The notes: generated by a model not told the origin, from the letters alone. Shown: positions 534-20,745, counted from the stretch's first letter. The stretch is 21,454 nt of DNA from a virus (IMGVR_UViG_3300045955_000189:1-21454), one strand, 5' to 3'. Numbers and translations: made by a program.

Positions 534-540
534 CAGCACC

Positions 541-641
541 TTCCGCCGAAGGCGGAGCGGGCGACTGCCCGCCGCCGCTCGTGCGGCGCCCCCGCGGAGC
601 GCCAGGCCGCCTTGCGGCCGGTGCGGCGCGTGAGCGAGATC
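541..641 (+). repeat. Intergenic hairpin repeat, family A copy 1
   Basis: The 106-base gap between two minus-strand genes is filled by small GC hairpins. On the plus strand these are CCGCC-GAA-GGCGG (543-555), GCGGGC-GACT-GCCCGC (557-572) and a GCCGC/GCGGC hairpin (about 573-587), then GGCGCC-type and GGCCGC-type stems and a GTGAGCGA tail that overlaps the stop codon of the upstream gene. The same layout recurs at 1855-1968, 12761-12863 and 14614-14678. The gene-proximal end supplies the GGAAGG of the next gene. Confidence 0.75.
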
Positions 642-1200
642 ATGCCGTCACGTCCTCGGCGAGCCGCCCCTCGAGATCGTATTCGTCCTCGGCGACGCAT
701 TTGAGCACCACGGTCCCGTGCCGCACCGCCGTCTGCGCCAGGAAGCCGTCCGGCACGTTGATTGTCACCCCGGTGCCGGCGTCGAACTCGATCGGGTCGG
801 CGCCGGCCTGGCGAAAGTAGATCTCGCTGTCGACCGCCATGCCGATGCCGGAAGCCACCACGACGGTGACGCCGGCCGCGAAGCGCTTGTAATGGTTGGC
901 ATCGCCCGAGACGAGCTCGTAGGTCCCGTCGGTCGGCACATCCTCGTCGTCGGTGATCGCCGGCCGGAAGTTCGCCTGCGGCAGCGTGAACGGCCCTTCC
1001 TCCGTCGCATCGTCGAGGATGATGGTGATCTGCGTGCCGTCCTGGACGATATTGGCGATGCCGTTCGGCTCGGGCAGCGCCGCGATCTCGGAGTCGATCT
1101 TCTGGTCGACCGTATAGAAGTTCTCGTCGACCTGCGCTGCCGTCAGGTTGGTTCCCTCGCCCGGCCCCCAGGCGCCGGCCGTCCGGTATCTGATCGTCAT
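640..1200 (-). CDS. Phage tail fibre-like / appendage protein
   Basis: This 186-residue protein starts at ATG 1200, with AGGAG eight bases upstream. The N-terminus carries NLTAAQVDENFYTVDQKI (about residues 18-35), a pattern often seen near the N-terminus of tail fibre and receptor-binding proteins of alphaproteobacterial phages. The rest is rich in beta-prone, acidic segments, such as GVTVVVASGIGMAVDSEIYF and GTGVTINVPDGF, and would fit a compact beta domain. No enzymatic motif is seen. Its place downstream of the tail hub genes fits a virion appendage. The function is inferred from the N-terminal motif and position; an uncharacterised minor tail protein is the alternative. Confidence 0.6.
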   Translation of the reverse strand: MTIRYRTAGAWGPGEGTNLTAAQVDENFYTVDQKIDSEIAALPEPNGIANIVQDGTQITIILDDATEEGPFTLPQANFRPAITDDEDVPTDGTYELVSGDANHYKRFAAGVTVVVASGIGMAVDSEIYFRQAGADPIEFDAGTGVTINVPDGFLAQTAVRHGTVVLKCVAEDEYDLEGRLAEDVTA

Positions 1201-1240
1201 TCAGCGTGCTCCTCTTCGGCCCGTCAGGGCCGCAAGGCGT

Positions 1241-1333
1241 GAGTAGTGGAGTAGTGAGTAGTGAAAAAAGAAGAACGTGGAGCCCGACGGATGATCTGCA
1301 CCATTCACTATTCACTATTTCACTATTCACTCA
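1241..1333. repeat. Palindrome with GAGTAGTGA-type micro-repeat arms (family E)
   Basis: The left arm (1241-1265) is built of GAGTAGTG units and the right arm (1304-1333) of TTCACTATTCAC units, which are largely complementary. About 38 bases lie between the arms. The arms are AT-richer than the surrounding genes. The right arm overlaps the stop codon of the gene at 1331-1840. A short GGCCC/GGGCC hairpin lies at about 1219-1232, just before the Shine-Dalgarno of the next gene. Arms of this kind are known as dispersed repeats in rhizobial chromosomes; that assignment is from memory. Confidence 0.7.
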
Positions 1334-1840
1334 CGCCGCATCGGGATTTCGGAAGTTGAGGCGGATGAACACGCCGTCGTCGCGCCGCTGGAACGCGATC
1401 CAGATGCACCGGCGGACCATCACGTATTGCTCGGGATCGTCCGGGTTCTCGACCCTGATTTCCTCTTCCGAACGCTGGTATTCGTCGTATTCGATCAGCT
1501 TCGCGCCGGCTGGAGGCTCCTCGTCGCCGCCGGTGCCGCTGTTGACGATCGTCGTATAGGTGATGTCGGTGACAGCTGCCGGCTCCGTCAGCTGGAACCT
1601 GGCCGGCTTGCCCCATCGGAGCTCGGCTGCGCCCTGGTCGACCGGCGGCCTCAGCAGCGCCAGCCTCTGGAGCACGTCCTCGGCCAGCCCCTCGCGCGCG
1701 ATCTTCTCGGCCGGGGAGATCGGCCCCAACTGGCGTTTCGCCCGCTCTCTGGCGCTGTCCAGCATCGAATTGACGCGCTCGGCCGCGCCTTCGATGCCGC
1801 GGACGCCGCCGCTCAGCGAAAGCGTGTAGCGCTCGCCCAT
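1331..1840 (-). CDS. Hypothetical phage tail-region protein
   Basis: This 169-residue protein begins MGERYTLSLSGGVRGIEGAAERV. The ATG at 1840 is chosen because GAGG lies seven bases upstream; the longer open frame to 2020 reads through a repeat and is not believed. An N-terminal half with charged helical character (residues 15-65) is followed by beta-prone segments and an acidic stretch (EYDEYQRSEEEIRVENPDD, about residues 117-135). I recognise no family. It lies between the tail hub-like gene and the fibre-like gene, so a tail-tip or fibre-attachment role is possible but unproven. Confidence 0.6.
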   Translation of the reverse strand: MGERYTLSLSGGVRGIEGAAERVNSMLDSARERAKRQLGPISPAEKIAREGLAEDVLQRLALLRPPVDQGAAELRWGKPARFQLTEPAAVTDITYTTIVNSGTGGDEEPPAGAKLIEYDEYQRSEEEIRVENPDDPEQYVMVRRCIWIAFQRRDDGVFIRLNFRNPDAA

Positions 1841-1854
1841 CACGCTGCCTCGCA

Positions 1855-1968
1855 GGCCGCGACCGCGGCCCGCCGGCCGTCCGGCGCCCCGCCGGAGCGC
1901 CAGGCCCCGCGGCGATTGCGCAGCAATCGTCCGCAGCGGCCGATACGGCGCGTGAGGCAGGACAGACC
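1855..1968 (+). repeat. Intergenic hairpin repeat, family A copy 2
   Basis: This fills the 130-base gap between the genes ending at 1971 and starting at 1840. The plus strand shows GGCCGC-GACC-GCGGCC (1855-1870), GCCGG-CCGT-CCGGC (1872-1885), a GGCGCC...GGAGCGCC segment, and an extra CGATTGC-GCA-GCAATCG hairpin near 1912-1929, ending CGCGTGAGGCAGG. The orientation matches the other copies. Confidence 0.7.
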
Positions 1969-1970
1969 CA

Positions 1971-3716
1971 TCACGCCGCCTCGAGGTTGATGGTGCGCGG
2001 CACCATGAGCGAAGAGACATTCACCGCGTAGGACGTCTCGAACGGCCCGCCGTCGAGCGGCACAAGTTCCAGATCGACCTCGGTATAGACCTCGTTCAGC
2101 GCCTCGGCCGCCTGCACCAGGTCGCCGGCGATGCCGAGCCCGGAGAGCACCGCCCGCTGCGCGAATTCGCCGTTCGATACGGTGAGCGTGTCGATGACGT
2201 TGACCGCCTGCATCCCGTTGAGGAGATCGACGCCGTCATCGTCGGGATCGGCGGCGAAGGTCTCGTACTGGACCTCGCCGGCGATCGGCATGGTAAACTC
2301 GCCGGTCTCCACCTGCCATCCCGAATTGACGTAGCCCGCATCGACATAGGTCGGCGTGCCCGTGGCCCCCGAAACCGTGTTGCCCTCGCCGACCATGCAG
2401 CCGATGGTGATCGAGGCGCCCAGCGCACCCTCGTCACCGTCGAGCGAAAGCTGGTAGGCCACGACCTTGCCGGACGCCGTCCCGCCGGGAAGCCTGTCAT
2501 CGTCGACCGAGACGTTCATCGTGCAGTCGAGCGCGAGCGCATTCAAAAACGGCACGTCGAACGACACTTCCACCGCCCGCGCCCGCGCCAGTATCTGGGC
2601 GCGCGCCATCGATATCAGCGCGGTCAGGCTCTGCCGGCCCCTGTCGGTCGGGAAATAGCTCCTGCGCCTGACATCCCTGACCGGCTTCAGCGCGCCCGCG
2701 TCGATCGGCTTGTCGGCATCCGAGGAGGCGAGCGTGAGATATACCACCTCGTCGTCGGCGGCGAGCGTCACGACGTCCTGGCAGTCCGCCCTCAGCGTGA
2801 ACGTGACGGTTTCCGCATATTGCCGGCTGGCTGACCAGTCGACCTCGAACTCCGGAACCAGAGTCCACACCGGAAACTCGCCGGTCTCGTTGGTGGCGAT
2901 GACCGTGACGAAGCCCTGCTCGACGACCAGGCCATCCACGCGTGTGACCGAACTGTCGCCCACCGTCCAGCCCGAGCCGATCCTGTCGCCCTTCTCCGGC
3001 CAGTCCTCGGAAAGCCCGCCCCCCGTCAGCGACGTCACCACCCAGCCATTGCCGGAACCGACCGACTGGAACGCCGAAAGGAGCCTCGCCTTCAAATCGA
3101 CCGAGCCCGTCGCCACCTGGTCCCAGGTGACCGACGCCTCGACCTTGACGGCCCTGATCGGCGGCGAGCCGATGGCGACCGCCAGGCTGTCGTAGATGAT
3201 GTTTTCGCCGAAATCGATCGAGTCCCCCTCGCCCGTCACGATGTCCGATGCCGTGACCGCGTGGCTCGTCCTGTGGCAGTGCCAGAGCTTCGGATAGAAC
3301 TCCAGCACCGCGTCGGGATCGTCGCGCCTGTCGGGCGCCACCCACAGCGCATCGTAATAGGGCGTCACCCGCAAGGCCGACGCAGCCGTGCGCTTGCGCG
3401 AATCGTAATTGCCCGGCCGCGCCTGGAACGAAAGCCGCACGGTCTCGCCGTCGATGTCCTGCGGCAGCGCCACCAGCCGCCCGAAGAACAGCGGCACGAC
3501 GCCGTCGGTGGTTTCGGTATCGACCGAAAACCACGCCCAGATCTGCCGGCCCGGAGCGAGCAGGCCGGTCTCGGGGTTCGGCACGACGATGTCGAGCGTC
3601 GCGAAGTCGCCCTCGTGCTGCGCCAGCACGAAGGAGAACACCGACAAATCCTCGACCTGGTGCGAGACGTTGAACGTCGTCTCGCTCGCGTCGGCCCATG
3701 CGAAGAAGAACTGCAA
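1971..3716 (-). CDS. Tail-tip hub-like (baseplate) protein
   Basis: About 581 residues if it starts at TTG 3716, which follows the upstream stop by four bases and has GAGG nine bases before it. An ATG at 3770 would overlap the upstream gene by 50 bases, with AAGG directly abutting it, and is less likely. The N-terminal domain has a pattern shared by hub proteins of long-tailed phages: DIVVPNPETGLLAPG followed by LFFGRLVALPQDIDG. These read as an alternation of beta strands with an FxG turn. The C-terminal third has beta-prone segments and an acidic ADPDDDGVDLLNG. Downstream of the tape measure and distal tail genes, it probably closes the tail tip and carries the fibres. The family assignment is an inference from pattern and order. 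Confidence 0.6.
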   Translation of the reverse strand: MQFFFAWADASETTFNVSHQVEDLSVFSFVLAQHEGDFATLDIVVPNPETGLLAPGRQIWAWFSVDTETTDGVVPLFFGRLVALPQDIDGETVRLSFQARPGNYDSRKRTAASALRVTPYYDALWVAPDRRDDPDAVLEFYPKLWHCHRTSHAVTASDIVTGEGDSIDFGENIIYDSLAVAIGSPPIRAVKVEASVTWDQVATGSVDLKARLLSAFQSVGSGNGWVVTSLTGGGLSEDWPEKGDRIGSGWTVGDSSVTRVDGLVVEQGFVTVIATNETGEFPVWTLVPEFEVDWSASRQYAETVTFTLRADCQDVVTLAADDEVVYLTLASSDADKPIDAGALKPVRDVRRRSYFPTDRGRQSLTALISMARAQILARARAVEVSFDVPFLNALALDCTMNVSVDDDRLPGGTASGKVVAYQLSLDGDEGALGASITIGCMVGEGNTVSGATGTPTYVDAGYVNSGWQVETGEFTMPIAGEVQYETFAADPDDDGVDLLNGMQAVNVIDTLTVSNGEFAQRAVLSGLGIAGDLVQAAEALNEVYTEVDLELVPLDGGPFETSYAVNVSSLMVPRTINLEAA

Positions 3717-3720
3717 GGCT

Positions 3721-4152
3721 TCAGGCCTCTTCCAGTGACATCTGCCAGTTGCAGGCAGCGCCGTATTCATCCTTGCCGATGCGCAAGCCCGTGACCTTCA
3801 TGGCGAGCTTCGGCCGGTAGAACACGAAGCCGTCGGCCGTCCGCGACGATCCCGACACGACAGGCTTTTCCGGCGAGCTGCCCGTCGCGTCGGGATAGGC
3901 GAGCTCGGGGATGCAGCTGACGTTGATCGTCATCCCCGGCCAGATGCCGTCGATCGCCGGGCTGTCCATGTCGGTGCACGTCACCGTCGAGCGGTATTTC
4001 CTGAACTGCGTCGCGCCGAGGTCGACCAGGTCGCCGTTGATCGTGCGGCGCATCTGCGCGGATATCGGCTCGAGCGTCTGCGTGACGCCGCGCGCCGAAT
4101 AGGGCGGCACGCCGACCTCGTCGATGTCGAAAACGGTCGTCTCAGCCGGCAC
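3721..4152 (-). CDS. Probable distal tail / minor tail protein
   Basis: This 143-residue protein starts at GTG 4152, preceded by GGAGGG about five bases upstream. It follows the tape measure gene by 43 bases. Three cysteines are visible (in TCTDMD, VSCIPE and AACNWQ) along with strongly beta-prone sequence (FRKYRSTVTCTDM; AMKVTGLRIGKDEYG). Size and position, directly after the tape measure and before the hub-like protein, match a distal tail or tail-tip protein in siphophages. I cannot name a family. Its stop is four bases before the TTG start of the next gene, which suggests coupled translation. Confidence 0.6.
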   Translation of the reverse strand: MPAETTVFDIDEVGVPPYSARGVTQTLEPISAQMRRTINGDLVDLGATQFRKYRSTVTCTDMDSPAIDGIWPGMTINVSCIPELAYPDATGSSPEKPVVSGSSRTADGFVFYRPKLAMKVTGLRIGKDEYGAACNWQMSLEEA

Positions 4153-4195
4153 GAGACCCTCCGGCCGAACCGCGTGAGGCAGGCAAACTCTTCAC
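4153..4195 (+). repeat. Short remnant of intergenic repeat family A
   Basis: The 43-base gap between the tape measure stop and the next GTG carries CCGCGTGAGGCAGG on the plus strand. This is the same tail as family A copies at 1955 and 14665. The hairpin array is missing. Its other end holds the GGAGGG that serves the next gene. Confidence 0.45.
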
Positions 4196-6886: not shown

Positions 6887-6896
6887 GATCTCTCCG

Positions 6897-6932
6897 CTTC
6901 GTCATCCGCGGGCTTGACCCGGGGACCCATTC
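6897..6932. repeat. Dispersed alphaproteobacterial repeat (GPRVKPADD type, family F)
   Basis: Plus strand CATCCGCGGGCTTGACCCGG, continuing GGACCCATTCC, is a half-palindromic unit. Read on the minus strand it would encode the spurious peptide MGPRVKPADDE. That peptide is a known by-product of repeats scattered through many alphaproteobacterial chromosomes (recalled, not searched). It sits in the 67-base gap just before the tape measure Shine-Dalgarno. Confidence 0.7.
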
Positions 6933-6953
6933 CGTGACCTGCCGGCAGTCTGC

Positions 6954-7628: not shown

Positions 7629-7640
7629 CAGCCGGCGCCG

Positions 7641-7779
7641 CCCCCTCCACCGCCTTCGGCGGTCCCCCTCCCCCGCGAAGCAAGCTTCGCAGGGGAGGAT
7701 CCGCGCTGGTAGACGGCCGCGACGCCGATCCTCCCCCGCTTGCGGGGGAGGGGGACCACGCGAGGCGTGGTGGAGGGGG
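7641..7779. repeat. Nested long palindrome with purine/pyrimidine arms (family C)
   Basis: The left arm (7641-7676) reads CCCCCTCCACC, then a GCC-TTC-GGC hairpin, then GGTCCCCCTCCCCC. The right arm (7742-7779) is its reverse complement around a different small hairpin (CACGC-GAG-GCGTG). The central part has further short inverted units, such as GCGAAGC-AA-GCTTCGC. It fills almost all of the 160-base gap before the DUF6441-like gene. Confidence 0.8.
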
Positions 7780-7788
7780 CGGCCTCGC

Positions 7789-8091
7789 TCATTCCTTCGT
7801 CAGCTCCCTGATCCGCTTTTTCACGTCCTTCGGATCGCCACGCGCCGCGGTGGCCTGCAACGCCAGTTGCGCCCCCGTCTCGCGCTTCCTTCGCCGGTCG
7901 GAGAAGCCGAGCCGTCCGACGAGCTCGCGCGGCGTAGACTTCCACAGCCGCTCCTCGTCGTGCCCGCGCTCGATCAGCTCGACGATCACTTCCGCGATTT
8001 CGTAGCCGGCGCCCTTGCCGATGCTGCGGCCGCGTCGGCTCCCAGAGTTGCCCCCAGCGCCGTCAGCTTCTCGACGAAGGGGCCCAGTCCG
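7789..8091 (-). CDS. Tail assembly chaperone T extension (made by -1 frameshift as G-T fusion)
   Basis: This frame encodes the C-terminal part of a fused chaperone. Translation from ATG 8405 shifts -1 at CCCAAAC (8091-8097) after residue 105 and then reads 100 more residues (RTGPLRREADG... to ...RIRELTKE), for a 205-residue G-T protein. The useful domain is the helical part from about GYEIAEVIVELI onward, with DEERLWKSTPRELVGRL resembling the W-x-P segment of T domains. In lambda and many siphophages the G-T product links the tape measure to the tail tube subunit. An independent start at GTG 7989, overlapping the G stop codon, is the alternative and would give 66 residues. Confidence 0.75.
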   Translation of the reverse strand, partial: RTGPLRREADGAGGNSGSRRGRSIGKGAGYEIAEVIVELIERGHDEERLWKSTPRELVGRLGFSDRRRKRETGAQLALQATAARGDPKDVKKRIRELTKE

Positions 8092-8405
8092 TTTGGGAGC
8101 GTCAGCTTCAGGATCTTCGCGATGAAGTCGGCCTGGACGTCGACCGACAGCTTCGCCGCTATCTCCTCGGCCGCCCGGTCGCTGGGCGATCCGCAGCCCG
8201 CCGCGATGATCGCTGAAACAGCCTCGCCGCCCATCTCCATCAGCCGCTCCGGGGAAACTTCCATCCCGCTCATCATCTTCCTGAGCTCGGGAAACCGCGC
8301 GAGCAGGCTCGCCACCCCCGCCGCCGAAACGCCGTACACTTCCACTTCCACGCCGCCGACCGAAACCGTCTCGGTCAGCGGCGCGATATCCAGCAGACTC
8401 GCCAT
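7986..8405 (-). CDS. Tail assembly chaperone G
   Basis: This 139-residue acidic-to-neutral helical protein starts at ATG 8405, with AGGGAG five bases upstream (MASLLDIAPLTETVSVGGVEVEVYGVSA). It lies directly between the major tail protein gene and the tape measure side, the fixed place of tail chaperones. The N-terminus has a short beta-rich part and then helices (VASLLARFPELRKMMSG). Its last third overlaps the -1 frame T extension. The main product is expected to coat the tape measure during tail assembly and to be absent from mature tails (family knowledge). Confidence 0.8.
   Translation of the reverse strand: MASLLDIAPLTETVSVGGVEVEVYGVSAAGVASLLARFPELRKMMSGMEVSPERLMEMGGEAVSAIIAAGCGSPSDRAAEEIAAKLSVDVQADFIAKILKLTLPNGLGPFVEKLTALGATLGADAAAASARAPATKSRK
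8050..8097 (-). promoter_or_regulatory. Predicted -1 ribosomal frameshift site: slippery CCCAAAC plus downstream stem
   Basis: On the coding strand the heptamer C-CCA-AAC is in the zero frame of chaperone G (CCA is codon 104). It fits the X-XXY-YYZ rule. Seven bases later GCCCC (8083-8079) can pair with GGGGC (8054-8050), enclosing a CTTC/GAAG mini-hairpin. The -1 frame then stays open to 7789. Position and direction match the G/G-T shift of lambda-like phages. Confidence 0.8.
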
Positions 8406-8426
8406 GCAAACTCCCTCTGGTTATCG

Positions 8427-8493
8427 AGGCAGTAGGCAGTAGGCAGTAGGCAATAGTCGTCTCCTACTGCCTAAGCCCTACTGCCTACTGCCT
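8427..8493. repeat. Palindrome with GGCAGTA micro-repeat arms (family D)
   Basis: The left arm (8427-8456) contains three AGGCAGT units and the right arm (8464-8493) the complementary CTACTGCCT units, with a seven-base loop and only a few mismatches over about 30 bases. It fills the gap between the major tail protein stop and the chaperone Shine-Dalgarno. Repeats of this kind are scattered in rhizobial genomes (recalled). Confidence 0.8.
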
Positions 8494-8498
8494 GATCA

Positions 8499-9026: not shown

Positions 9027-9076
9027 GGCCCTTTCCTTTCAGAGTTGCCCGCTACGCCGGGCGTTGCGATTAGCCT

Positions 9077-9154
9077 TCCTCGCCCCTTGTGGGAGAGGAT
9101 AGTAAGGCCCGGTGAGCGGCTTGCCGCGAACCGTTGGCCGCACTTGGTGAGGGG
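9077..9154 (+). repeat. Intergenic repeat, family B copy 1
   Basis: The plus strand reads CCTCGCCCCTTGTGGGAGAGG, then AGTAAGGCCC, a long hairpin (GGCCCGGT...GCGG / CCGC...ACCGTTGGCC) and CACTTGGTGAGGGG. Matching copies lie at 16758 and 20655. In this copy the hairpin stem has changed on both sides (GGT/ACC in place of GGCTC/GAGCC), which keeps pairing. Confidence 0.8.
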
Positions 9155-9179
9155 TGTGCGCCCTTGCCGATTGGGGTGC

Positions 9180-9976: not shown

Positions 9977-9977
9977 C

Positions 9978-10784
9978 CTATTGCAGCAGCCTCCACAACG
10001 TCCCGTCGACCAGCTCGCGCTCGTTGAACTGCGAATAGGCGAGCGACCTCAGCCACGGCTCGCGATCCGGATAGATCGGCTCCTCGATCCGCCCGATGTC
10101 GCAGCGGCCGACGAGCGCGGCCGCGCTCGACCGGTCGACGAACACCGGGCAGCCCATGATGACGGCTTCCACCGCCGCGCCCGATCCGTGCGTCACGAGG
10201 CAATGAGCGCCCTCCAGATCCCGGTGCAGCTTGCGCCCCGACCGCTGCATCTCCTTGTCACGAAGGACGATCGTCCGATCGGTGATTTCCTTCAGCCTCG
10301 CGACGGTCTTTTCCGTCCAGCTCTCGAGGCCGTGAAAGGCGCTGTAGGTCGGCGTCGGCTCGGCGACGACGACGTGTTTGCCGGTCCGCTTCCACGGCCA
10401 GACCGGCGTCGCCATCGACGTCCAGCGGTCGTCGGCGCAGTCGCGGATCCGCTGCATCTGGAACGCGCCGACGTGCCAGCGGTAGTAGCCGCCGTCGGTG
10501 CCCGGAGGCAGGTCGGTGGCGAAGATGCGCCTGACATAGCCCCTGTCCCAGTAGATGAACGTCCTGCCGCTCTGCCGCCATTTCATGACGAGATGCCTGA
10601 CTTCAGGCATGCAGCCGACGATCGGGATGATTGCGTCGGGCAGCCTGTCGAGCTCGCCGGCGTCTGTTTTGACCACCATGCCGCCGAGCTTCTCGATTTG
10701 CCGCGCGACCGTCTCGAACAGCACCTGCTTGAACTTCTTCAGCCCCGCCGGGACAAAGAAGGCGACCCGCCGCGGCTCGATCAT
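9978..10784 (-). CDS. Predicted GT-B-like glycosyltransferase, capsule-synthesis-like
   Basis: This 268-residue protein starts at ATG 10784, which overlaps the previous stop (ATGA). It has FIYWDRGYVRR (about residues 76-86), an HGSGAAVEAVIMGCPVFV motif (199-216) and a C-terminal LAYSQFNERELVDG. The His-Gly-Ser-Gly...Glu...Gly-x-Pro-Val pattern resembles the sugar-nucleotide-binding end of Kdo or capsule-type transferases. Proteins with this layout recur in phage and polysaccharide loci but have no assigned reaction that I know. It is last in the cassette, one base before the head closure gene. Donor and acceptor are unknown. No membrane segment is seen, so it should act in the cytoplasm. Confidence 0.65.
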   Translation of the reverse strand: MIEPRRVAFFVPAGLKKFKQVLFETVARQIEKLGGMVVKTDAGELDRLPDAIIPIVGCMPEVRHLVMKWRQSGRTFIYWDRGYVRRIFATDLPPGTDGGYYRWHVGAFQMQRIRDCADDRWTSMATPVWPWKRTGKHVVVAEPTPTYSAFHGLESWTEKTVARLKEITDRTIVLRDKEMQRSGRKLHRDLEGAHCLVTHGSGAAVEAVIMGCPVFVDRSSAAALVGRCDIGRIEEPIYPDREPWLRSLAYSQFNERELVDGTLWRLLQ

Positions 10785-11428
10785 CGGCACCAGTACTCGC
10801 GCACCCAGCTCAGATGCGTGTATTGGGACGGATCCCTGCGGCCGGGAAACGCCACCACGCGCGCCCCGCGCGGCAGCAGCTCGCCGCCGGGCCAGCCGCG
10901 CTGCTGGAATGCATAGACGCCCGTCTGCCGGCCGCATCTCCAGCCCGCCGCCCGCGAAAACTTGTGCCAGAACCAGCCCTGGTCGTCGGGGAACTCGAAA
11001 CGCGGGATCACGTCCAGCTTCGCCGGCGAGAAGTCGTGCCAGACGTCCGGCCTGTAGCCGGCGGTGAGCATCCACATCGAGCCGTTGTACGGGCACGGAT
11101 TCGCCGAGTTCGCGCCCTGCATGATGACGAACGGCTCCGGCCGGTCGAAGAGGCCGCCGAGCGGCCCCGTCACGATCAGGTCGAGATCGAGGCAGACGAT
11201 GCGGTCGCCCTCCCTGATCCCGAGAGCGCGCTGCCAGGACGGATCGAACGCCCTGAGCCGCGCGAAGCAACCCGGTATCCGGGTGAGATGCATGTCCTCC
11301 TGCGCCGGCCGGCAGACGAGGAAGCGATGGTCCTTCCCGAGGTGCCGCCCGACGCCGGCCGCGAGGCGCTCGACATAGACCGGCGGATATTTCTCGCCCC
11401 ATTGCCATGTCGTCACTACGAGCGCCAC
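10781..11428 (-). CDS. Glycosyltransferase, DxD type (GT-A-like)
   Basis: This 215-residue protein starts at GTG 11428, overlapping the end of the methyltransferase gene by 13 bases. The DLD motif (D81, D83) in VCLDLDLIVTG is the expected metal and nucleotide-sugar site. NGSMWML (115-121) and PDDQGWFW (147-154) fit the acceptor side of small GT-A enzymes seen in phage and rhizobial surface loci. The N-terminus (LVVTTWQWGEKYPP) resembles the opening strand of the fold. It lacks a signal peptide and membrane anchor. The sugar cannot be told from sequence. An initial Shine-Dalgarno is weak, so translation is likely coupled. Confidence 0.8.
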   Translation of the reverse strand: MALVVTTWQWGEKYPPVYVERLAAGVGRHLGKDHRFLVCRPAQEDMHLTRIPGCFARLRAFDPSWQRALGIREGDRIVCLDLDLIVTGPLGGLFDRPEPFVIMQGANSANPCPYNGSMWMLTAGYRPDVWHDFSPAKLDVIPRFEFPDDQGWFWHKFSRAAGWRCGRQTGVYAFQQRGWPGGELLPRGARVVAFPGRRDPSQYTHLSWVREYWCR

Positions 11429-11994
11429 AGGACACCGATGCCGTTGTGTCCGGTCTCGCGCCTGATCTCCAGGTGTTTTCGCCCTTCCCTCAGCTCATCC
11501 CACACTTTCGGGACATCGATCTTCAATTTGTGCGCCGGGAAATTCGCCGGCTCGACCCAGCCGATGTCGTGGAACGCGACGAGGCGGCCGAGCGGCCCGT
11601 AATTCGCCCAGTCCGCCCTGACGTAAGGCTCCGTATGGTTGGCGTCGATGAACACCGCGTCGAACGGCCCGAGCCGCGTCGCGAACGCGATCGCCTCCGG
11701 CGACGTCGAGTCGCCGAGAAAAAGATGCGCGTCGTAGCCCTTTTCGGCCAGGCGGGCGACGCAGGCCTCGAGCGGCGCCTGTGTCTCCTTGAACGAGCCG
11801 TCCCCGTGCGGCTGGTCGATCGACACGACCCGCGAGCCCCGAGGCATCGACCAGGCGACACGCCAGAGCGAGCCGCCGAACTTCGAGCCGATCTCCAGGT
11901 AGGAGCGGACGTTCTCATGCGCCAGCAGCTCGATGAACGAGGCGATCTCGTTCCCGTTCTGCAGCGCGGCCGTCTTGTATTTCGCCTTCTTCAA
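11416..11994 (-). CDS. Class I SAM-dependent methyltransferase (Methyltransf_24-like)
   Basis: This 192-residue protein starts at TTG 11994, fused to the previous stop as TTGA, with GAGG upstream; no nearby ATG in frame fits. Motif I is YLEIGSKFGGSLW (residues 32-44), an acidic residue follows at D60, and FDAVFIDANHTEPYVRADW (111-129) with AFHDIGW (140-146) is the typical second half of O-methyltransferases of the cephalosporin-hydroxylase-like group. Such enzymes commonly methylate sugar hydroxyls in polysaccharide loci. In this cassette it probably caps or decorates a glycan. The length is short for the family but complete. Confidence 0.83.
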   Translation of the reverse strand: MKKAKYKTAALQNGNEIASFIELLAHENVRSYLEIGSKFGGSLWRVAWSMPRGSRVVSIDQPHGDGSFKETQAPLEACVARLAEKGYDAHLFLGDSTSPEAIAFATRLGPFDAVFIDANHTEPYVRADWANYGPLGRLVAFHDIGWVEPANFPAHKLKIDVPKVWDELREGRKHLEIRRETGHNGIGVLWRS

Positions 11995-12755
11995 AGCCGC
12001 CTCATCGCTTCTTCGTAGACGACGTCCACCCTTATGTTCTCCATCGCTTGCCGGCAGTGCCTGCACGGGCTCGTCGAGCCGCAGAATTCCTTCGAGCCCG
12101 TCATGTTGGCGTGCGTTGAATAGCCGGTCACCTCGGGCGGGATGAAGCCGCCGAAGATGACCACGGCCGGGATGTTTACAGCCGCGGCGCCGTGATGCAG
12201 CCCGCCTTCCGGGCCGATGTAGAGCCTCGCGTTCGCCAGGATCGCCAGCGCGTCGCGGAAGCTCCCCGTGCTCACCGCCTCGACGCCGTCGAGGGCCTTT
12301 CCGGTCGCGAACTGGATCAGCCTGACGCCGCGCAGCCGCAGGTAGTTCGCGAGCTGCTGCCAGTTGCCGCGGCCCCAGTCCTTGTTGGCCGCTACCTTCT
12401 TCCATGCCGGCAAATTCGGCTCGATGACAACGTAGTCGCCGGCGACGCGGCGCGCGTGCTCGCGCTCGGCCTCCTCGAAAAACACCTCGCCGGGCACGGC
12501 CCTGAAATCGCGGTTCCATATCCAGCGGCCCCGCCCCGGCCGGTTGTAGATCCGGTGCCCCTTGTAGAACGGCACCCATTCCAGGTCGGTCGTCCGCTCC
12601 TCGCCCGGCCTCGCGATGTTCGGGTTGCCCCGGAATATCCCGGCGCTGTGCTGGTCCCACAGGATGCGCCGGCGGTCGCCGAAGGCGATCCGCTTGCCCC
12701 GCGCCGCGGCGCCGCGGGCGAGGCCCGTCGCCATGAGATTATCGCCCAGGCCCAT
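11991..12755 (-). CDS. Glycosyltransferase family 9 (heptosyltransferase-like)
   Basis: This 254-residue protein starts MGLGDNLMATGLARG at ATG 12755, with GGAAGG about seven bases upstream. The GLGDNLMATG loop at the N-terminus and GPEGGLHHGAAA (181-192) near the C-terminus are the standard substrate and ADP-sugar binding motifs of GT9 enzymes. A cysteine group, CGSTSPCRHC (225-234), is unusual and may bind metal, as it occurs in many phage and surface-sugar relatives. It is shorter than the usual 320-350 residue heptosyltransferases and lacks much of the N-terminal domain. Whether it uses heptose is unknown. Confidence 0.82.
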   Translation of the reverse strand: MGLGDNLMATGLARGAAARGKRIAFGDRRRILWDQHSAGIFRGNPNIARPGEERTTDLEWVPFYKGHRIYNRPGRGRWIWNRDFRAVPGEVFFEEAEREHARRVAGDYVVIEPNLPAWKKVAANKDWGRGNWQQLANYLRLRGVRLIQFATGKALDGVEAVSTGSFRDALAILANARLYIGPEGGLHHGAAAVNIPAVVIFGGFIPPEVTGYSTHANMTGSKEFCGSTSPCRHCRQAMENIRVDVVYEEAMRRL

Positions 12756-12760
12756 CTTAC

Positions 12761-12863
12761 GGCCTTCCCCGGGAGGCCGGGACCGCGACTGCGGTCAGCC
12801 GGTCGTCCGGCGCCCCCGCGGAGGGCCAGGTCACGAACCGAGCGCTGCGGCCCGTGAGCGAAA
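12761..12863 (+). repeat. Intergenic hairpin repeat, family A copy 3
   Basis: The plus strand has a GGCCT/AGGCC hairpin (12761-12778), GACCGC-GACT-GCGGTC (12781-12796), GCCGG-TCGT-CCGGC (about 12799-12812), then GGCGCCCCCGCGGAG and a GTGAGCGAAATCA end that overlaps the stop of the upstream glycosyltransferase. It is the only repeat inside the carbohydrate cassette, and it supplies the GGAAGG of the GT9 gene. Confidence 0.78.
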
Positions 12864-13571
12864 TCACGCCGCCCACCGCATCAGCTCGGCCCGCCATTCC
12901 TCGGCCCAGGGTGCGGCCTCGTATCCCGGCATGTCGGGCGTTCCGTCGGTGAAATGCACGATCGCCGGATCTATGCGCGGGTCGCTGTGGCCGACCAGGA
13001 AATTCCATTTCGGGTCGAGCCCGCCGATCTCGGAATCGTCGAGCCAGCAGAAGCGATGCAGGTCTCGGCCCGCCACGGCGTTGACCAGCGCCGGCGTCAG
13101 CGCCCGGTTCGCCTTGTGGCCGCAGTTGATCAGCATCACCGACGACCAGTTCTTGCGCGCGTAGGCGGTCTGCAGCTGGCCATCCATTTTGATGTCGTTG
13201 GCCGGCCGGTGGTCGTGCTTGACCACCATCACGGCCTTGTCCGGGTCGGCCTGGTCGAACAGCCGGTCGAGGTTCGTGCGCACCAGCATGTCGCAGTCCA
13301 TGAACAGCGCCCAGCCACCGCCGGCGAGGTGCGGCACCAGGAAGCGGCTGATCGCGAACTCCGTCGACATCGGCGCTTCCGAAATGTCGTCCCACAGCCT
13401 GCCGTCGCGGATCGACGTCGGCCTGTGATAGAGCCCGGCCGCCCTGAGCTCGGCGAGCCTGAGCCCGAAGGTTGGCACCGGCGCGATTCCATGCCTCCTC
13501 GCCGAATGGCGGGTGACGGCGAACCCCGCCGTCTCGCGTGGGTCGAAGCCTATGAAAACAGTCCGTTTCAT
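12864..13571 (-). CDS. Glycosyltransferase, DxD type (GT8-like)
   Basis: This 235-residue protein starts MKRTVFIGFDPRETAGF at ATG 13571. A GTG at 13598 with GAGG upstream would add nine residues and overlap the previous gene, so the start is not certain. The N-terminal strand and STEFAISRFLVPHL (69-82) lead to LFMDCDMLV with D92 and D94 as the metal-binding pair. KMDGQLQTAYARKNWSS (128-144), DLHRFCWLDD (170-179) and HFTDGTPDMPGY (206-217) are typical of a GT-A group found in phage and rhizobial glycan loci. No signal peptide is visible. The sugar donor is unknown. Confidence 0.82.
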   Translation of the reverse strand: MKRTVFIGFDPRETAGFAVTRHSARRHGIAPVPTFGLRLAELRAAGLYHRPTSIRDGRLWDDISEAPMSTEFAISRFLVPHLAGGGWALFMDCDMLVRTNLDRLFDQADPDKAVMVVKHDHRPANDIKMDGQLQTAYARKNWSSVMLINCGHKANRALTPALVNAVAGRDLHRFCWLDDSEIGGLDPKWNFLVGHSDPRIDPAIVHFTDGTPDMPGYEAAPWAEEWRAELMRWAA

Positions 13572-13578
13572 CGACGGC

Positions 13579-14205
13579 CTAGACCAGCTCTGCTTCACGC
13601 ACTGCCTCTTCGAAGCTCATTCTCGGCCATGCGTCGACCGCGCTCCCAGGGCTCGCGTTCACGATGCGCACCCCCATTTTCGCGGCCGACGGCGCCACCG
13701 CCCGGTATTCGGCGGCCTGCTCGGCCAGCGATTTCGCCTCGCCTCCCTTCGGCCATGGCCATTTCAGCCCGTGACTGTGCCGCGCACCGCCGGGCCCCAG
13801 CCTGGCGTCGACGCCGAGCAGCACGATCCGCGCCGCGCCGAGATGGATCGCCAGGTTGATCGCGCCGGTCGTCGACGTCCGCGCCAGCGCGACGCAGGTC
13901 CGGTCCGACGACATCTGCTTCGGCTTGACCTTCCTGACCTTCATGATCCGGGGGTCGCCGACTTCCATCGCGGTCGTCACCACCGTTCCGGCGAACTCCT
14001 CCGGGATGGACGGCCGCAGGTTGCGCTCGCGCCACCAGCGGCCGTCGGCGAAGAACAGCATGTCGGCCTTCGGCCAGTGCACCCAGGACGACTTGACGAC
14101 GATCACCCGCCGCCCGGCGAGAGGCGACAGGTCGCGGGGAAGCGACGGGCCGGAAGCGACGATGAAGACCGTCTCGCCCGGCCAGTCGCGCGGCACCGAC
14201 CACAA
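13579..14205 (-). CDS. DUF115 / MptE-like predicted glycan-modifying protein
   Basis: This protein of about 208 residues starts at TTG 14205, one base after the decoration gene stop; GTG 14196 is an alternative, and neither has a clear Shine-Dalgarno. VFIVASGPSLPRDL (13-26) holds the Gly-Pro-Ser-Leu loop, FFADGRWW lies at 51-58, and INLAIHLGAARIVLLGVD (116-133) and NASPGSAVDAWP (183-194) complete the pattern seen in DUF115-like proteins, some of which act in flagellin glycosylation, and in the similar nucleotide-sugar fold of GT42 sialyltransferases. I infer a glycosyltransferase-like role. It opens the cassette directly behind the capsid decoration gene. Confidence 0.72.
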   Translation of the reverse strand: MWSVPRDWPGETVFIVASGPSLPRDLSPLAGRRVIVVKSSWVHWPKADMLFFADGRWWRERNLRPSIPEEFAGTVVTTAMEVGDPRIMKVRKVKPKQMSSDRTCVALARTSTTGAINLAIHLGAARIVLLGVDARLGPGGARHSHGLKWPWPKGGEAKSLAEQAAEYRAVAPSAAKMGVRIVNASPGSAVDAWPRMSFEEAVREAELV

Positions 14206-14206
14206 C

Positions 14207-14569: not shown

Positions 14570-14613
14570 TTCAGGCTCCTTTCAGATGATCAGGATGTAA
14601 GGGGAATGTGACC

Positions 14614-14678
14614 GGCCCGAAGGGCCGAGCCCGCGACTGCGGGCCGCCGGAAGTCCGGCGCCCCGCCGTGAGGCAGAA
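14614..14678 (+). repeat. Intergenic hairpin repeat, family A copy 4
   Basis: The plus strand has GGCCC-GAA-GGGCC (14614-14626), GCCCGC-GACT-GCGGGC (14629-14644) and GCCGG-AAGT-CCGGC, followed by GCCCCGCCGTGAGGCAG, which reaches the capsid gene stop. Loop bases GAA and GACT match copy 1, while the stem bases differ and remain paired. Confidence 0.8.
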
Positions 14679-16742
14679 CTATGCGCCCGTGGAATAGACC
14701 AGCCCGCGGAAGTCGAGCGCCTTGACGCCGGCGTCGATGCGGGCCTTGAACTCGACCCCGTCGACGTTCCAGCCGTCGCGCTGCTCGAGCGTCGGCTGGC
14801 TGACGCCGTTGAGATACGACACCTCGATCGTGTCGTGCGCGTTCGGGTTGGCGGCGAGATACCACTCCGCGGTGGAGTCGGCGTCGAGCCGCGCCTCGTC
14901 GACCACCTGCACCAGGTCACGGACATAGTTCGGTGCCCGCGTGTTGTTGGTGCCGGCCGCCGTCACCTCGAACTCGCTGGTGATCAGCTGCCGCGCCTTT
15001 CCCGCGAGCGTCGTCGGCACCAGCAGGAAGGCCGGGCGGATGTTGAGCGCCGCGGCGTGGCCGTCGGGATCCTGCTGCCGCGCCATCTTGGCCCGCGCCG
15101 CGTCGAGGTTGGCCGTCGTCAGCGTGCCGGTCGTGGTGTTGTCGTGGTCGGCATGGAACAGCGCCACGCCGTCGGCCATCGCCGGGTTGCCGGTGAGGAT
15201 CGCATAGACCAGATTGCCGATCGTGCGCCGCGCCGCGCGGCCCATCCGCGCCGGCACGCGGGTGAACACGCTGAGGTCGTCGTTGATGATCGCCTGGCGG
15301 GTGATGGCGAACATCTTGCCGTAGGTGGCGAGCTGCACCGTCTCGCCGCGGTCGCCGATCGTGCCGAACGTGTATTCGGCACCTTCCGGCACCTCGCCGA
15401 GCGACGGGAACAGGTTCAGGTCGACGCGCTTGGTCGCCTTGAAGTCGGTGAGCGTGCCCGACGCCGTCCACAGCGGGAAGGTCTCCTCGGCCTCCATGTA
15501 GCCCTTCAGCATCGACTTGTTGGCGACGTTCGCCAGCACCTCGACGAAATCGGACGTCGAATGCATGCCGGCCGCCATGAACGGCCGCATGCCGAGCGCA
15601 GCACCCACCATCACCATCGGGTCGCCGGTGGTGAGCTTGATGCCGGCCTTCTCCAGGCTCATGCGGGCGATCTCGCGCAGGCTCATCGCAGAGAACTCGT
15701 TGACCTCGCCGCCCGAGAGGCCGGCCTTCGACATCAGCGACTTCTCGACGCCCTGCCTGAAGCGGTCGCGCTCGTCGGCCGCCACGGTCGCGACCGGCCG
15801 CGTCGGCGAGCCGGTATCGCCGGCAGCGAATGCGTCGATCACCAGGTCGCGGGCCTTGTCGAGGCTGCCGGCGGCCGAAGCGATGATCTTCTGCGTCTCG
15901 TCGAAGGACATCTTCGCGCGGCCGCACATCTCGTAGATCTTCACGGTCACGGCGTCGGCGCCGAGGCCGGGAAGCGCGGCAACCGGTGCCGGTTCGGGCT
16001 GCGGGGAAGCAGGGGTCGGGTTGGCGGGCTGGTTGGGGTCCGCCGGAGCAGCATTCCTGGACATGATTGTCCCTTTCGGTTCGAGTGCATCGAGCGGTGC
16101 GGACGCAACCGCCACCATCGGCAGGCCGCTGGCCTTCCGATCCCTGGCCGACGCAACAAGGTGCGCCGGAGCATTCCTGTAGGTGCCGTAGTCGAAGGTC
16201 GCGTCGGCCGTCGCCGCGTCCTTCGCCTCGTCGACCGTGGTCGCGAAACCCTTCTCGACCGCCTGTTTCGGCGTCAGCCAGGTTTCGGCCTTCATCATCT
16301 TGCGGATCTCGGCCTCGCCGCGGCCGCTGCGGTCGGCATAGACCTCGGCGTAGACGCCGCCCATCGTCTCCAGCGTGTCGGCGGTGCGCCGGTGCTCGTC
16401 GGCCGTGCCGAGCGTGATCCCGGCCGGCTCGTGGATCATCATCAGCGAGCCGAGCGGCATGACGATCGTGTCGCCGGCCATCGCGATCAGCGACGCCGCC
16501 GATGCGGCAAGACCGTCGATCGTCACCGTGACGGCGCCGTCGTGACGCTTCAGCGCGTTGTAGATCGCCGCGCCGTCGGTCGCGATGCCGCCGGCCGAAT
16601 TGAGGCGAACCGTGATGTCGCCCTCCATGCCAGCCAGCGCCTCCACCACCTGGTCGGCGGTGAAGCCGGCCCCCTCCCAGAAATCGTGGAAGCCGAGCGG
16701 CCCGTAGAGCACGAGCTCGCCGTCAACGATCAGGTTTTGCAT
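14679..16742 (-). CDS. ClpP-like prohead protease / Mu-like major capsid protein fusion
   Basis: This 687-residue polyprotein starts at ATG 16742, with AAAAAGGAG six bases upstream; a longer frame to 16811 has no support. Residues 1-200 form an S14 ClpP-like maturation protease: NSAGG (48-52) is the oxyanion loop, S81 in GLAASAAS the nucleophile and H104 in MIHEP the base. A Pro/Ala/Asn-rich linker (about 227-260) and a helical scaffold-like region follow. The capsid part occupies roughly residues 340-687 (KGYMEAEETFPLWTASG; ALFHADHDN) and is Mu gpT-like. Such fusions are known. An in-frame ATG at 16064 with AAAGGGA upstream could make a separate 461-residue capsid precursor. Confidence 0.93.
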   Translation of the reverse strand: MQNLIVDGELVLYGPLGFHDFWEGAGFTADQVVEALAGMEGDITVRLNSAGGIATDGAAIYNALKRHDGAVTVTIDGLAASAASLIAMAGDTIVMPLGSLMMIHEPAGITLGTADEHRRTADTLETMGGVYAEVYADRSGRGEAEIRKMMKAETWLTPKQAVEKGFATTVDEAKDAATADATFDYGTYRNAPAHLVASARDRKASGLPMVAVASAPLDALEPKGTIMSRNAAPADPNQPANPTPASPQPEPAPVAALPGLGADAVTVKIYEMCGRAKMSFDETQKIIASAAGSLDKARDLVIDAFAAGDTGSPTRPVATVAADERDRFRQGVEKSLMSKAGLSGGEVNEFSAMSLREIARMSLEKAGIKLTTGDPMVMVGAALGMRPFMAAGMHSTSDFVEVLANVANKSMLKGYMEAEETFPLWTASGTLTDFKATKRVDLNLFPSLGEVPEGAEYTFGTIGDRGETVQLATYGKMFAITRQAIINDDLSVFTRVPARMGRAARRTIGNLVYAILTGNPAMADGVALFHADHDNTTTGTLTTANLDAARAKMARQQDPDGHAAALNIRPAFLLVPTTLAGKARQLITSEFEVTAAGTNNTRAPNYVRDLVQVVDEARLDADSTAEWYLAANPNAHDTIEVSYLNGVSQPTLEQRDGWNVDGVEFKARIDAGVKALDFRGLVYSTGA

Positions 16743-16757
16743 CGTCAGCTCCTTTTT

Positions 16758-16857
16758 CTCGCCCCTTGCGGGAGATGCGGACGATGGCAAGCCATCGCCG
16801 CGGGATAGCAAGGCCCGGCTCGCGGCCCTCCGCGAGCCGCTGGCCGCGCCTGGTGGT
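16758..16857 (+). repeat. Intergenic repeat, family B copy 2
   Basis: CTCGCCCCTTGCGGGAGATG begins the unit. An inserted CGATGGCAAGCCATCG hairpin follows, then GGCCCGGCTCGCG...CGCGAGCCGCTGGCC and a GCCTGGTGG end that touches the portal gene stop. It has the same orientation as the copies at 9077 and 20655. It fills the gap between portal and protease-capsid genes. Confidence 0.8.
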
Positions 16858-18429: not shown

Positions 18430-18432
18430 CGG

Positions 18433-18633
18433 TTAGAGGCCCCTCGAAAATCCCGCCACGGTGCGCCGCGGCTCGGCCGAGGACGGATTGACCTCGGCCT
18501 CCATCTGCGCCAGCAGCTTTTCCATCTCGGCCACCGAGCGAAACGTCAGCAGCGTGTCGCCGTGCTTGGATGTCAGCACGCCCGAAGCCATCGCCCGCTT
18601 CAGCCTGTCGATGTCGGTCTGCGTCCAGGCCAT
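18433..18633 (-). CDS. gpW-like head-tail joining protein
   Basis: This 66-residue protein (MAWTQTDIDRLKRAMASG) starts at ATG 18633, six bases after the terminase stop, with GAGGG upstream. The opening W-T-x-x-D-I-x-x-L-K-x-A-I/M-A-x-G and the following TLLTFRSVAEMEKLLAQME are the normal gpW-type layout of two helices around a beta turn. It sits between large terminase and portal, exactly as gpW does in lambda. It connects the portal to head-closure proteins. It is complete in length. Confidence 0.87.
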   Translation of the reverse strand: MAWTQTDIDRLKRAMASGVLTSKHGDTLLTFRSVAEMEKLLAQMEAEVNPSSAEPRRTVAGFSRGL

Positions 18634-18639
18634 CGCTTT

Positions 18640-20634
18640 TCACCCTCTCAGCCAGCCGCCGGGACGGCGATCGATGAAGATCTCCTTCGTCGCCGCCGCC
18701 GGCGCCGGCTTCTTCGCGCCGGCCTTCGGCTTCGCCGGCGCCGGCATCCCGGCCTGCACCTTCAGCACGTCCGGCGAGAACAGGTCGAGATCGGCGGGCA
18801 AGCCGCGGTCGGCCGCGAGCCGCTTCCATTGCTCCTCGGTCATCCTCGACTGGCCGAGATAGTCGGCGAGCGCGTCGTTGTAGATCTCGCAGTCTAGGCT
18901 GTGGTTTTCCTCGCCGTTGCGCACCGTCCACACCCGCCGCTGGCGGCCGCGGAACATCTCGGTCGCCAGGTACTCCGAGGTGATCTGCCGGAAGTAGATC
19001 TCGTCGAGCCAGGTGCCGAAATGGCAATAGCCGGCCGGGTCCGCATCCTTGCCGGCGGCGATGCCGAGCTTGTGCAAATTGGCGTAGAAAGCGCCCTTGA
19101 GCGGCCAGGTGCCGACCGCCCAGACCATGGCGCCGTGGCGGATGCGTTTGCCGTTGAAGTCGATATCGACCGGCGACGGCGACCCGAGTGCCGGCCGCGA
19201 CCAGCCGTCGATGCCCTTCAGCGCGAACGCCGCCGCCTTGCCGCGCACCCATGTATAGACGACATGGCTGCGGTATCCGGAATCGACGCCGAAGGCGTCC
19301 ACCTGGCGCTCGCGGCCGAAGGCGTCGGGCCAGCGTTTCGTCCTGATCTTCTCGAGCTCGACGAAGGCGCCTTGATGCGGATCGGACGTCTCGCCGTCGA
19401 TGTAGCCGGCGTCGACCCGCCAGCTCTGGCCATCCGGCGCATAGGCCTTGATGACGTACCAGATGCCGCGCATCTGGACGTCGGCCGCGCCGGTCAGCAT
19501 CAGCCCGCGCGGCGGGATATGGCCGCGCTGGAGGCTGCCGTCGCGCCGCTCCATCAGCCGCACGTGATCCGGCGCATCGCCCTTGACGTCGAAGGGCAGG
19601 CCCAGCGTCAGATTCTCGAAGGTCTTCAGCTTCTTCGGATCGCCGGCGGCCTTGACCCAGCGCTCGGCGACCTTGTCGAAGGGCACGAAGGGCGAGGTCA
19701 GCGCGTCGAAATGGTAGCTCGGATGGGCGCCGGGCTTGGGATCGGTGGCGATCCAGCGGCCCTTTTTCATCAGCGCCACCTTCTCGTGGCCCTCGACGAT
19801 GGCGCCGCAGCACGGCGTCGCATAGTGCGCGTTGTACGGCCACTTCTCCTCGAAGCGGAACCAGCGGCGGTCGAAGACGAAGCGGAAATTTTCGCCGCAG
19901 CCCGGGCACGGCATGTGCCAGTAGCGGCGGTCGCCGGCGTTGAAATAATCGTCGATCTTCGAGCCGCCCTTGACCGTGGGCGTCGAATTGTAGAGCCGCT
20001 TCCACTCGCCCGACATCAGGAACGATTCCTGCCGGGCCTCGACCATGCCGATCGGGTCGCCCTGCTCGTCCAGGTCGTCTGGATATTCGTCGACCTCGTC
20101 GAGCAGCGCGACCTTGATCGTCTTCGACCTCAGATCCGCGGCCGAGGTGGCGATCGCCAGCGTCAGCGAGCCGCCGGGATAGACCTTGGACGTCGTCGTC
20201 GAGGCGTCCCCTGCCCGGCTGGTCTGCGTCTTCACCTTGCGGCGGAGCTCCGGCGTCTTCTCGATCGCCAGCTGCAGCTTGTCCTTGTTGAAGTCCTTGC
20301 GGGCGTCGTTGGTCGGCTGCACGATCATGATGCGGCAGGGATCCTGGTCGATCATGTGCCCGACCGCGGCGAGGATCAGCGTCGTGAAGCCGCTCTGCGC
20401 GCTTTTCCTGATCGCGATCTCGTTGACCGGACTGTCGAAGGAGAGCATGTCCAGCGGCTCGACGATGTAGGGCGTCAGCGAGGAATCCCAGGCCTCGCCC
20501 GACTTCGGCCCGTCCGGCACGACCAGGTGCTGCGCCGCCCATGCCGACGGCACGATCCGCTCCGGCGGCATGATGATGCCGGCCAGCGTGCCGGCGACGA
20601 TCGCCAGCGCCGAGCGCTTCAACCTGATTTGCAT
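18640..20634 (-). CDS. terL: Terminase large subunit, GpA family
   Basis: This 664-residue motor/nuclease starts at ATG 20634, with GAAGGG five bases upstream; TTG 20637 is less likely. The ATPase part has a variant Walker A, RKSAQSGFT (76-84), Walker B VALLDEVDEY with D179/E180, and a coupling motif NSTP (216-219). A cysteine group CPGC (243-246) and CC (275-276) may bind zinc, as in lambda gpA relatives. The nuclease part begins at TGAADVQ (D385) and VDSGYRS (D451). The last 50 residues are Ala/Pro/Lys-rich. Together with the small subunit it cuts and packages concatemeric DNA. Confidence 0.95.
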   Translation of the reverse strand: MQIRLKRSALAIVAGTLAGIIMPPERIVPSAWAAQHLVVPDGPKSGEAWDSSLTPYIVEPLDMLSFDSPVNEIAIRKSAQSGFTTLILAAVGHMIDQDPCRIMIVQPTNDARKDFNKDKLQLAIEKTPELRRKVKTQTSRAGDASTTTSKVYPGGSLTLAIATSAADLRSKTIKVALLDEVDEYPDDLDEQGDPIGMVEARQESFLMSGEWKRLYNSTPTVKGGSKIDDYFNAGDRRYWHMPCPGCGENFRFVFDRRWFRFEEKWPYNAHYATPCCGAIVEGHEKVALMKKGRWIATDPKPGAHPSYHFDALTSPFVPFDKVAERWVKAAGDPKKLKTFENLTLGLPFDVKGDAPDHVRLMERRDGSLQRGHIPPRGLMLTGAADVQMRGIWYVIKAYAPDGQSWRVDAGYIDGETSDPHQGAFVELEKIRTKRWPDAFGRERQVDAFGVDSGYRSHVVYTWVRGKAAAFALKGIDGWSRPALGSPSPVDIDFNGKRIRHGAMVWAVGTWPLKGAFYANLHKLGIAAGKDADPAGYCHFGTWLDEIYFRQITSEYLATEMFRGRQRRVWTVRNGEENHSLDCEIYNDALADYLGQSRMTEEQWKRLAADRGLPADLDLFSPDVLKVQAGMPAPAKPKAGAKKPAPAAATKEIFIDRRPGGWLRG

Positions 20635-20654
20635 CAAAGCCCTTCGCGGGTTTC

Positions 20655-20734
20655 TTCCTCGCCCCTTGTGGGAGAGGACAGTAAGGCCCGGCTCGCGACC
20701 TTCCGCGAGCCGTCGGCCGCACTTGGTGAGGGGG
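20655..20734 (+). repeat. Intergenic repeat, family B copy 3
   Basis: TTCCTCGCCCCTTGTGGGAG opens the unit, followed by AGTAAGGCCCGG, the stem GGCTCGCG...CGCGAGCC, and CACTTGGTGAGGGGG. It is nearly identical to the copy at 9077 at its two ends and differs in the middle stem. It fills the gap between small and large terminase genes. Confidence 0.82.
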
Positions 20735-20745
20735 TACTCCTTGGC

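Follow-up and report, generated by a model that had tools for sequence, protein, structure and literature searches.

The DNA analysed here is an IMG/VR virus record of 21,454 bp (the window, with positions counted from its first letter). Its minus strand encodes a lambda-like late operon, with genes for TerS, TerL, portal, a fused protease-capsid protein, head decoration, a cargo cluster, tail proteins and tape measure. Twelve gaps interrupt this operon, and the locus raises the question of what occupies them and how it arrived there. Our best reading, to which we assign a probability of roughly 0.6, is that non-coding mobile palindromes of the REP/BIME/RIME kind have been copied into the gene junctions of a lambda-like temperate phage with a rhizobium-type host. 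It is based on junctions that are empty in relatives, on compensatory changes in the structure, on multiplicity and polarity, and on occurrence in chromosomes as well as in unrelated prophages.

Searches of annotated phage and plasmid collections found nothing close to the window. Relatives come from IMG/VR and from the genomes of Mesorhizobium and further bacteria, alphaproteobacteria for the most part; the closest share about 60-76% protein identity in head genes. Compared with these relatives the window genes are open and largely full length, so the description of the genes as intact in an earlier, sequence-only reading stands. The protease and capsid domains are fused in a single 687-aa gene (14679-16742). 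The cargo cluster (9978-14196) lies between the head and tail genes and includes, among unidentified genes, a family 9 glycosyltransferase-like and a methyltransferase-like gene; related genes are present in L033 and L005. Two small overlapping genes at 7789-8405 occupy the tail-chaperone position, and a programmed frameshift is possible there.

Repeat content of the gaps

We re-derived the gaps by an independent codon-usage gene call; gene calls and counts are approximate. The same 12 gaps were returned at the same coordinates, apart from a single 3-nt difference that reflects the choice of TerL start, and the remaining gene junctions in the window are overlaps or shorter than 15 nt. The contents of the gaps are as follows, with scores from a covariance model of family F1 (R1) where these apply. 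G037 is a genome that serves as a stand-in for that of the window's host.

534..639, plus strand: five-hairpin F1 copy at 542-641 (R1 92.9 bits); at its 3' end it meets the stop codon of gene 640-1200
1201..1330, no strand assigned: F1 remnant at about 1210-1245 (GGCCCgtcaGGGCCGCAAGGCGTGAG), seen by eye in the sequence
1201..1330, no strand assigned: F3, an imperfect inverted repeat of TGAATAG/CTACTCA-type units (gap fold z -3.7)
1841..1970, plus strand: F1 copy at 1846-1963 with a nested 25-nt hairpin (R1 51 bits); a 10-nt direct repeat, GCGTGATGGG, lies on both flanks
4153..4195, plus strand: probable remnant of F1 reduced to its start and end motifs (CCGGCCGAA..CCGCGTGAGGCAG), from the sequence, with no excess fold
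6887..6953, no strand assigned: F6 half-palindrome (CGTCATCCGCGGGCTTGACCCGGGGACCCATTCC), with matches in the G037 chromosome
7629..7788, no strand assigned: F5 composite palindrome (CCCCCTCCACCGCC..GGCGGTCCCCCTCCCC plus inverse; fold z -10.7)
8406..8498, no strand assigned: F4 hairpin with CAGTAGG-unit arms at 8427-8456 and 8464-8493 (fold z -7.7)
9027..9179, plus strand: F2 copy at 9075-9154
12756..12863, plus strand: F1 copy at 12766-12865 (R1 79.8 bits), matched at 86% by one in the G037 prophage; its 3' end runs up to the stop codon belonging to the gene at 12864
14570..14678, plus strand: short form of F1 at 14612-14690, without hairpins H4 and H5 (R1 43 bits), downstream of the capsid gene
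16743..16857, plus strand: F2 copy at 16755-16855 with a nested hairpin, at the portal/capsid junction
20638..20745, plus strand: F2 copy at 20654-20733, at the TerS/TerL junction

A repeat is present in all 12 gaps: F1 in six (four copies and two remnants), F2 in three, and F3 to F6 in one each. The four F1 copies, including the short form, were confirmed by the covariance model, and the two remnants were recognised by eye from the ends of F1. Ten of the 12 gaps fold below the shuffled mean (transcript strand, dinucleotide shuffles), with a mean z of -2.9 versus -0.15 for matched coding windows of equal length (Mann-Whitney P 2e-4); the gaps lacking excess fold are 4153-4195 (z +1.5) and 6887-6953 (z +1.0). 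The sequence-only reading had described a palindromic repeat in every gap longer than about 40 bases, six families, and genes that otherwise abut or overlap. All of this holds, the six families after regrouping. Its statement that one element fills each gap does not hold, as gap 1201-1330 contains members of two families and the copies at 1841 (F1) and 16743 (F2) each enclose the extra 25-nt hairpin. Weak microRNA matches at the F4 site were dismissed as chance matches to a long hairpin.

The same junctions in related prophages

Comparison of gap lengths with homologous prophages, suggested by the sequence-only reading, revealed junctions that are mostly empty in relatives. The TerS/TerL spacing is -4 to 14 nt in relatives versus 108 nt in the window, and that between the major tail gene and the next gene is -1 to 6 nt versus 93 nt. 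Portal and capsid are separated by -29 to 22 nt in most close relatives (others have larger spacing or extra genes) versus 115 nt in the window. The 1841 gap measures -1 in four relatives and the 1201 gap 9-12 nt in three, each versus 130 nt. The 6887 gap is 3 nt in L004 and L033, and the 4153 gap is -4 in three relatives, 0 in one and 208 nt in one. Four relatives have a TGATG stop-start overlap where the window has the 1841 gap, and three have one at the position of the 8406 gap. The capsid/decoration gap is already 54-103 nt in most relatives versus 109 nt in the window, and thus the element there explains only part of its length.

Because most comparable junctions are empty in related prophages, the elements were added: they are invaders of phage gaps, not phage structures. 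Elements that belonged to the phage itself were expected, in the sequence-only reading, to be absent from the host and to sit in the same gaps of distant phages. In relatives that share the gene order we found no F1 in the homologous gaps, the sole exception being L214 (a prophage of Mesorhizobium sp. GbtcB19, G003:C57). Here F1 lies in the gap homologous to 1841-1970, between TGA and ATG, in the opposite orientation.

The GCGTGATGGG flanks at 1841 are what a 10-nt duplication of a TGATG-type junction would leave. A check for target-site duplications returned 17 flanks of at least 6 nt against 7.9 expected, with one clear 10-nt case (the 1841 gap), and this small excess does not support target-site duplication as a general property of F1. 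No F1 copy was seen to be both present and absent among close strains, which counts against insertion.

Structure, distribution and placement of F1

Alignment of copies from the window, the G037 prophage and other genomes defines F1 as an element of about 100 nt with five hairpins, followed by a conserved 3' end, CGTGAGGCA or CGTGAGCGA. Compensatory changes were identified in 17 of 24 pairs in a first alignment of 13 copies. In a larger set (59 copies, 58 distinct), 95.3% of 1277 cells are paired and 21 of 24 pairs changed on both sides; pairing is 64% in shuffles, none of 500 shuffles is as high as observed, and sliding the partners by 1-3 columns lowers pairing to 31-43%. The second alignment was fitted to the model, and the 13-copy alignment is therefore the cleaner test. 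Pair types are 9 G-U, 52 A-U and 1180 G-C. The scarcity of G-U pairs suggests DNA hairpins or constraint on both strands, although it is no proof in so GC-rich an element. F1 is an uncatalogued element: Rfam 15 has no family that reaches gathering score in the window, two G037 prophage stretches or L007, and under permissive settings the window still showed no match at F1 or F2 sites.

Of 199 family genomes covered by a model search, 82 have F1; the best 20 candidates per genome were scored, which makes the copy numbers minimum values. Tandem arrays with a period of 99-103 nt occur in several genomes. In three genomes, G037, G112 and G108, the copies cluster in prophages. All seven copies in G037 lie inside a 36-kb stretch of a sheath-tailed prophage, with TerL in the same stretch. 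This prophage is unrelated to the window phage and carries 2-3 F2 copies as well. Outside it, no F1 was found in 1.13 Mb sampled or in a whole-genome scan. In G112, 9 of 11 copies lie within about 20 kb of a TerL gene, and the prophage region holds 9-10; in G108, four of eight are on a contig with a TerL gene and three of these four are beside a tape-measure-like gene. These three genomes were chosen for many copies or F2 hits and are not a random sample. Thirteen IMG/VR contigs contain the exact F1 core, several with many copies. In twelve of the genomes sampled by region, F1 occurs in stretches without viral genes detectable with a limited viral set. Annotated collections gave two weak phage matches and one weak plasmid match to F1, and the plasmid collection gave no rhizobial match to F1 or F2 at the sensitivity used.

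Copies or tandem arrays of F1 lie directly 3' of a 1035-nt gene, apparently the same, in L146, L147 and L152; the one scanned, from L147, matches semialdehyde dehydrogenase. That three genomes share this position behind an asd-like gene hints that F1 is retained there or has a function. In L143 (8456-10372) and L145 (9057-9252), F1 adjoins a cluster of small genes with SLT transglycosylases among them, which may be a degraded mobile element.

Some families are true chromosomal repeats. F5 occupies some 20 places spread over 10 G037 contigs (75-82% in long matches), with 13 strong copies in the 1.13 Mb outside the prophage, and F6 has three matches in 1.13 Mb of the chromosome. Weak plasmid matches to F5 are from Sphingomonas/Sphingobium. 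In G037, F2 is represented by the prophage copies and one weaker copy elsewhere; it is also present in chromosomes of other family members, and none was found in the genomes of seven relatives or in annotated phages and plasmids. In L068, L070, L071, L072, L073, L074 and L075, F2 is often found in BIME-like inverted pairs with some 20-60 nt between the copies. No exact match to the F4 or nested-hairpin motif turned up elsewhere in about 2.4 Mb scanned. The likeness of several families to repeats of rhizobial chromosomes, noted from sequence, is borne out for F1, F2 and F5 as repeats of rhizobial-type genomes. The literature, searched mostly outside subscription journals, yielded REP work only and nothing on these elements in rhizobial phages.

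Predicted genes are overlapped by 21 of 78 F1 copies. Among those in phage DNA and outside predicted genes, 25 of 27 have a gene boundary no more than 20 nt from the 3' end; for 20 of the 25 this boundary is an opposite-strand stop codon. In other regions the 3' end is near a boundary in 9 of 26 cases versus 0 of 25 for the 5' end (P 0.0017); three copies of this group were later found beside a phage tail gene. These counts show that F1 is polar relative to gene ends. Seven of 11 copies adjacent to a start codon end in GAGG, and a GTGAGG end before ATG may be usable as a ribosome site. Adaptation of this Shine-Dalgarno-type end to start codons is not supported beyond a trend (end type versus start or stop, P 0.15).

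Origin of the elements and known systems

Polar placement at stop codons and starts, together with the strong compensatory conservation, the repeated position after the asd-like gene and the GAGG ends beside start codons, would also fit F1 and F2 as functional RNA in 3' or 5' UTRs. They might protect or process late mRNA or set capsid/tail expression ratios, some of them offering a ribosome site (GTGAGG before ATG). We consider this unlikely, as relatives with the same gene order do without the element in homologous gaps, L214 has it reversed in the same gap, G-U pairs are very few, and the association of end type with starts is not significant. The sequence-only reading favoured host chromosomal repeats that drifted into the prophage during long residence or domestication. 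F5 is indeed a chromosomal repeat of G037, and F1 and F2 are in chromosomes of other family members. Simple leakage from chromosome to prophage fails for F1 and F2 in G037, however, where the prophage is loaded and the chromosome lacks F1, and other prophages are as loaded while the window genes are not degraded. We regard drift as distinctly improbable. Inserted elements of rhizobial-type origin remain from the sequence-only reading; domestication or long residence cannot be concluded from it: equal loads are present in other intact prophages, and the most host-like chromosome, that of the stand-in G037, is without the main family. Nor is it supported that the load is unexpected in an intact phage, given that of the G037 prophage, the G112 region and the 13 IMG/VR contigs. 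Finally, repeats kept as recombination linkers, for module swapping between temperate phages of one host, would explain why the window and the sheath-tailed G037 prophage, although unrelated phages, have F1 and F2 in common (up to 86%). A clear module switch in relatives (TerL 30% versus 44-63% for the next gene) falls at an element-free junction, however, and no mosaic breakpoint was demonstrated at an F1; we give this explanation very little credence.

The best reading of F1 is thus of a mobile element that lacks the usual RAYT transposase, settles at gene ends and is spread partly by temperate phages. RAYT was rejected as the mover for most genomes: the Y1/RAYT domain (PF01797) is absent in 8 of 10 F1-bearing genomes tested, including G037, G112 and G108. 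On settling, F1 would place its 3' end (CGTGAGGCA or CGTGAGCGA) against a gene boundary, in most cases immediately after an opposite-strand stop codon and sometimes immediately ahead of a start codon. Such sites would tolerate an insert because the stop codon and ribosome site survive. Movement may occur as a unit through a single-stranded hairpin intermediate, by a trans-acting recombinase or by replication slippage, with temperate phages probably carrying F1 between hosts. Once settled, the hairpins may stabilise or process late mRNA as a side effect. A narrower proposal is that F1 is a mobile, RAYT-free hairpin element disseminated by phages, with the stop-start junctions of temperate phages as the preferred sites into which it is copied via a single-stranded intermediate, and that phages deliver it to new hosts, so that some hosts carry F1 only in prophages. 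Taken together, these parts are speculative and we would not expect all of them to hold. A covarying, uncatalogued element in the junctions of intact late operons of phages, concentrated in prophages in some genomes, would make temperate phages a route between hosts for REP-like repeats, which have mostly been examined as repeats of chromosomes. The empty and filled sites are also precise starting points for asking how an element moves when no transposase for it is known.

Among catalogued elements, F1 resembles Rfam families in being a conserved structured element, but matches none in Rfam 15. Unlike a MITE, it starts with hairpin H1 and ends in CGTGAGG, in place of terminal inverted repeats. 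RIMEs are reportedly palindromic mosaic elements of intergenic regions in rhizobia. F1 is likewise a palindromic intergenic element, a likeness to the S. meliloti RIMEs that is by description only. A passage in a citing paper presents RIMEs (Osteras 1995) as Rhizobium-specific intergenic mosaic elements (PMC2245857).

REPs and BIMEs are intergenic palindromes of 20-50 nt in many copies, in tandem and mosaic arrangements, with a GTAG tetranucleotide and an associated RAYT (TnpA-REP) (PMC8266576). F1 shares with them the imperfect palindromes, the many intergenic copies and the tandem and mosaic arrangement, but is about 100 nt long with five hairpins rather than a single palindrome of 20-50 nt (PMC8266576). 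It lacks a GTAG-type tetranucleotide, having its CGTGAGGCA/CGTGAGCGA end instead, and most F1-bearing genomes examined lack the Y1 transposase. We therefore do not class F1 as a RAYT-linked REP. Br-REP1 and Br-REP2 of Bradyrhizobium are multi-palindrome chromosomal repeats in 3' UTRs, transcribed as stem-loops (PMC5082802). Like F1, they are multi-palindrome repeats of alphaproteobacteria; their printed consensus differs, and F1 also fills phage operons (PMC5082802). Of the described elements, Br-REP1 is nearest to F1 in kind.
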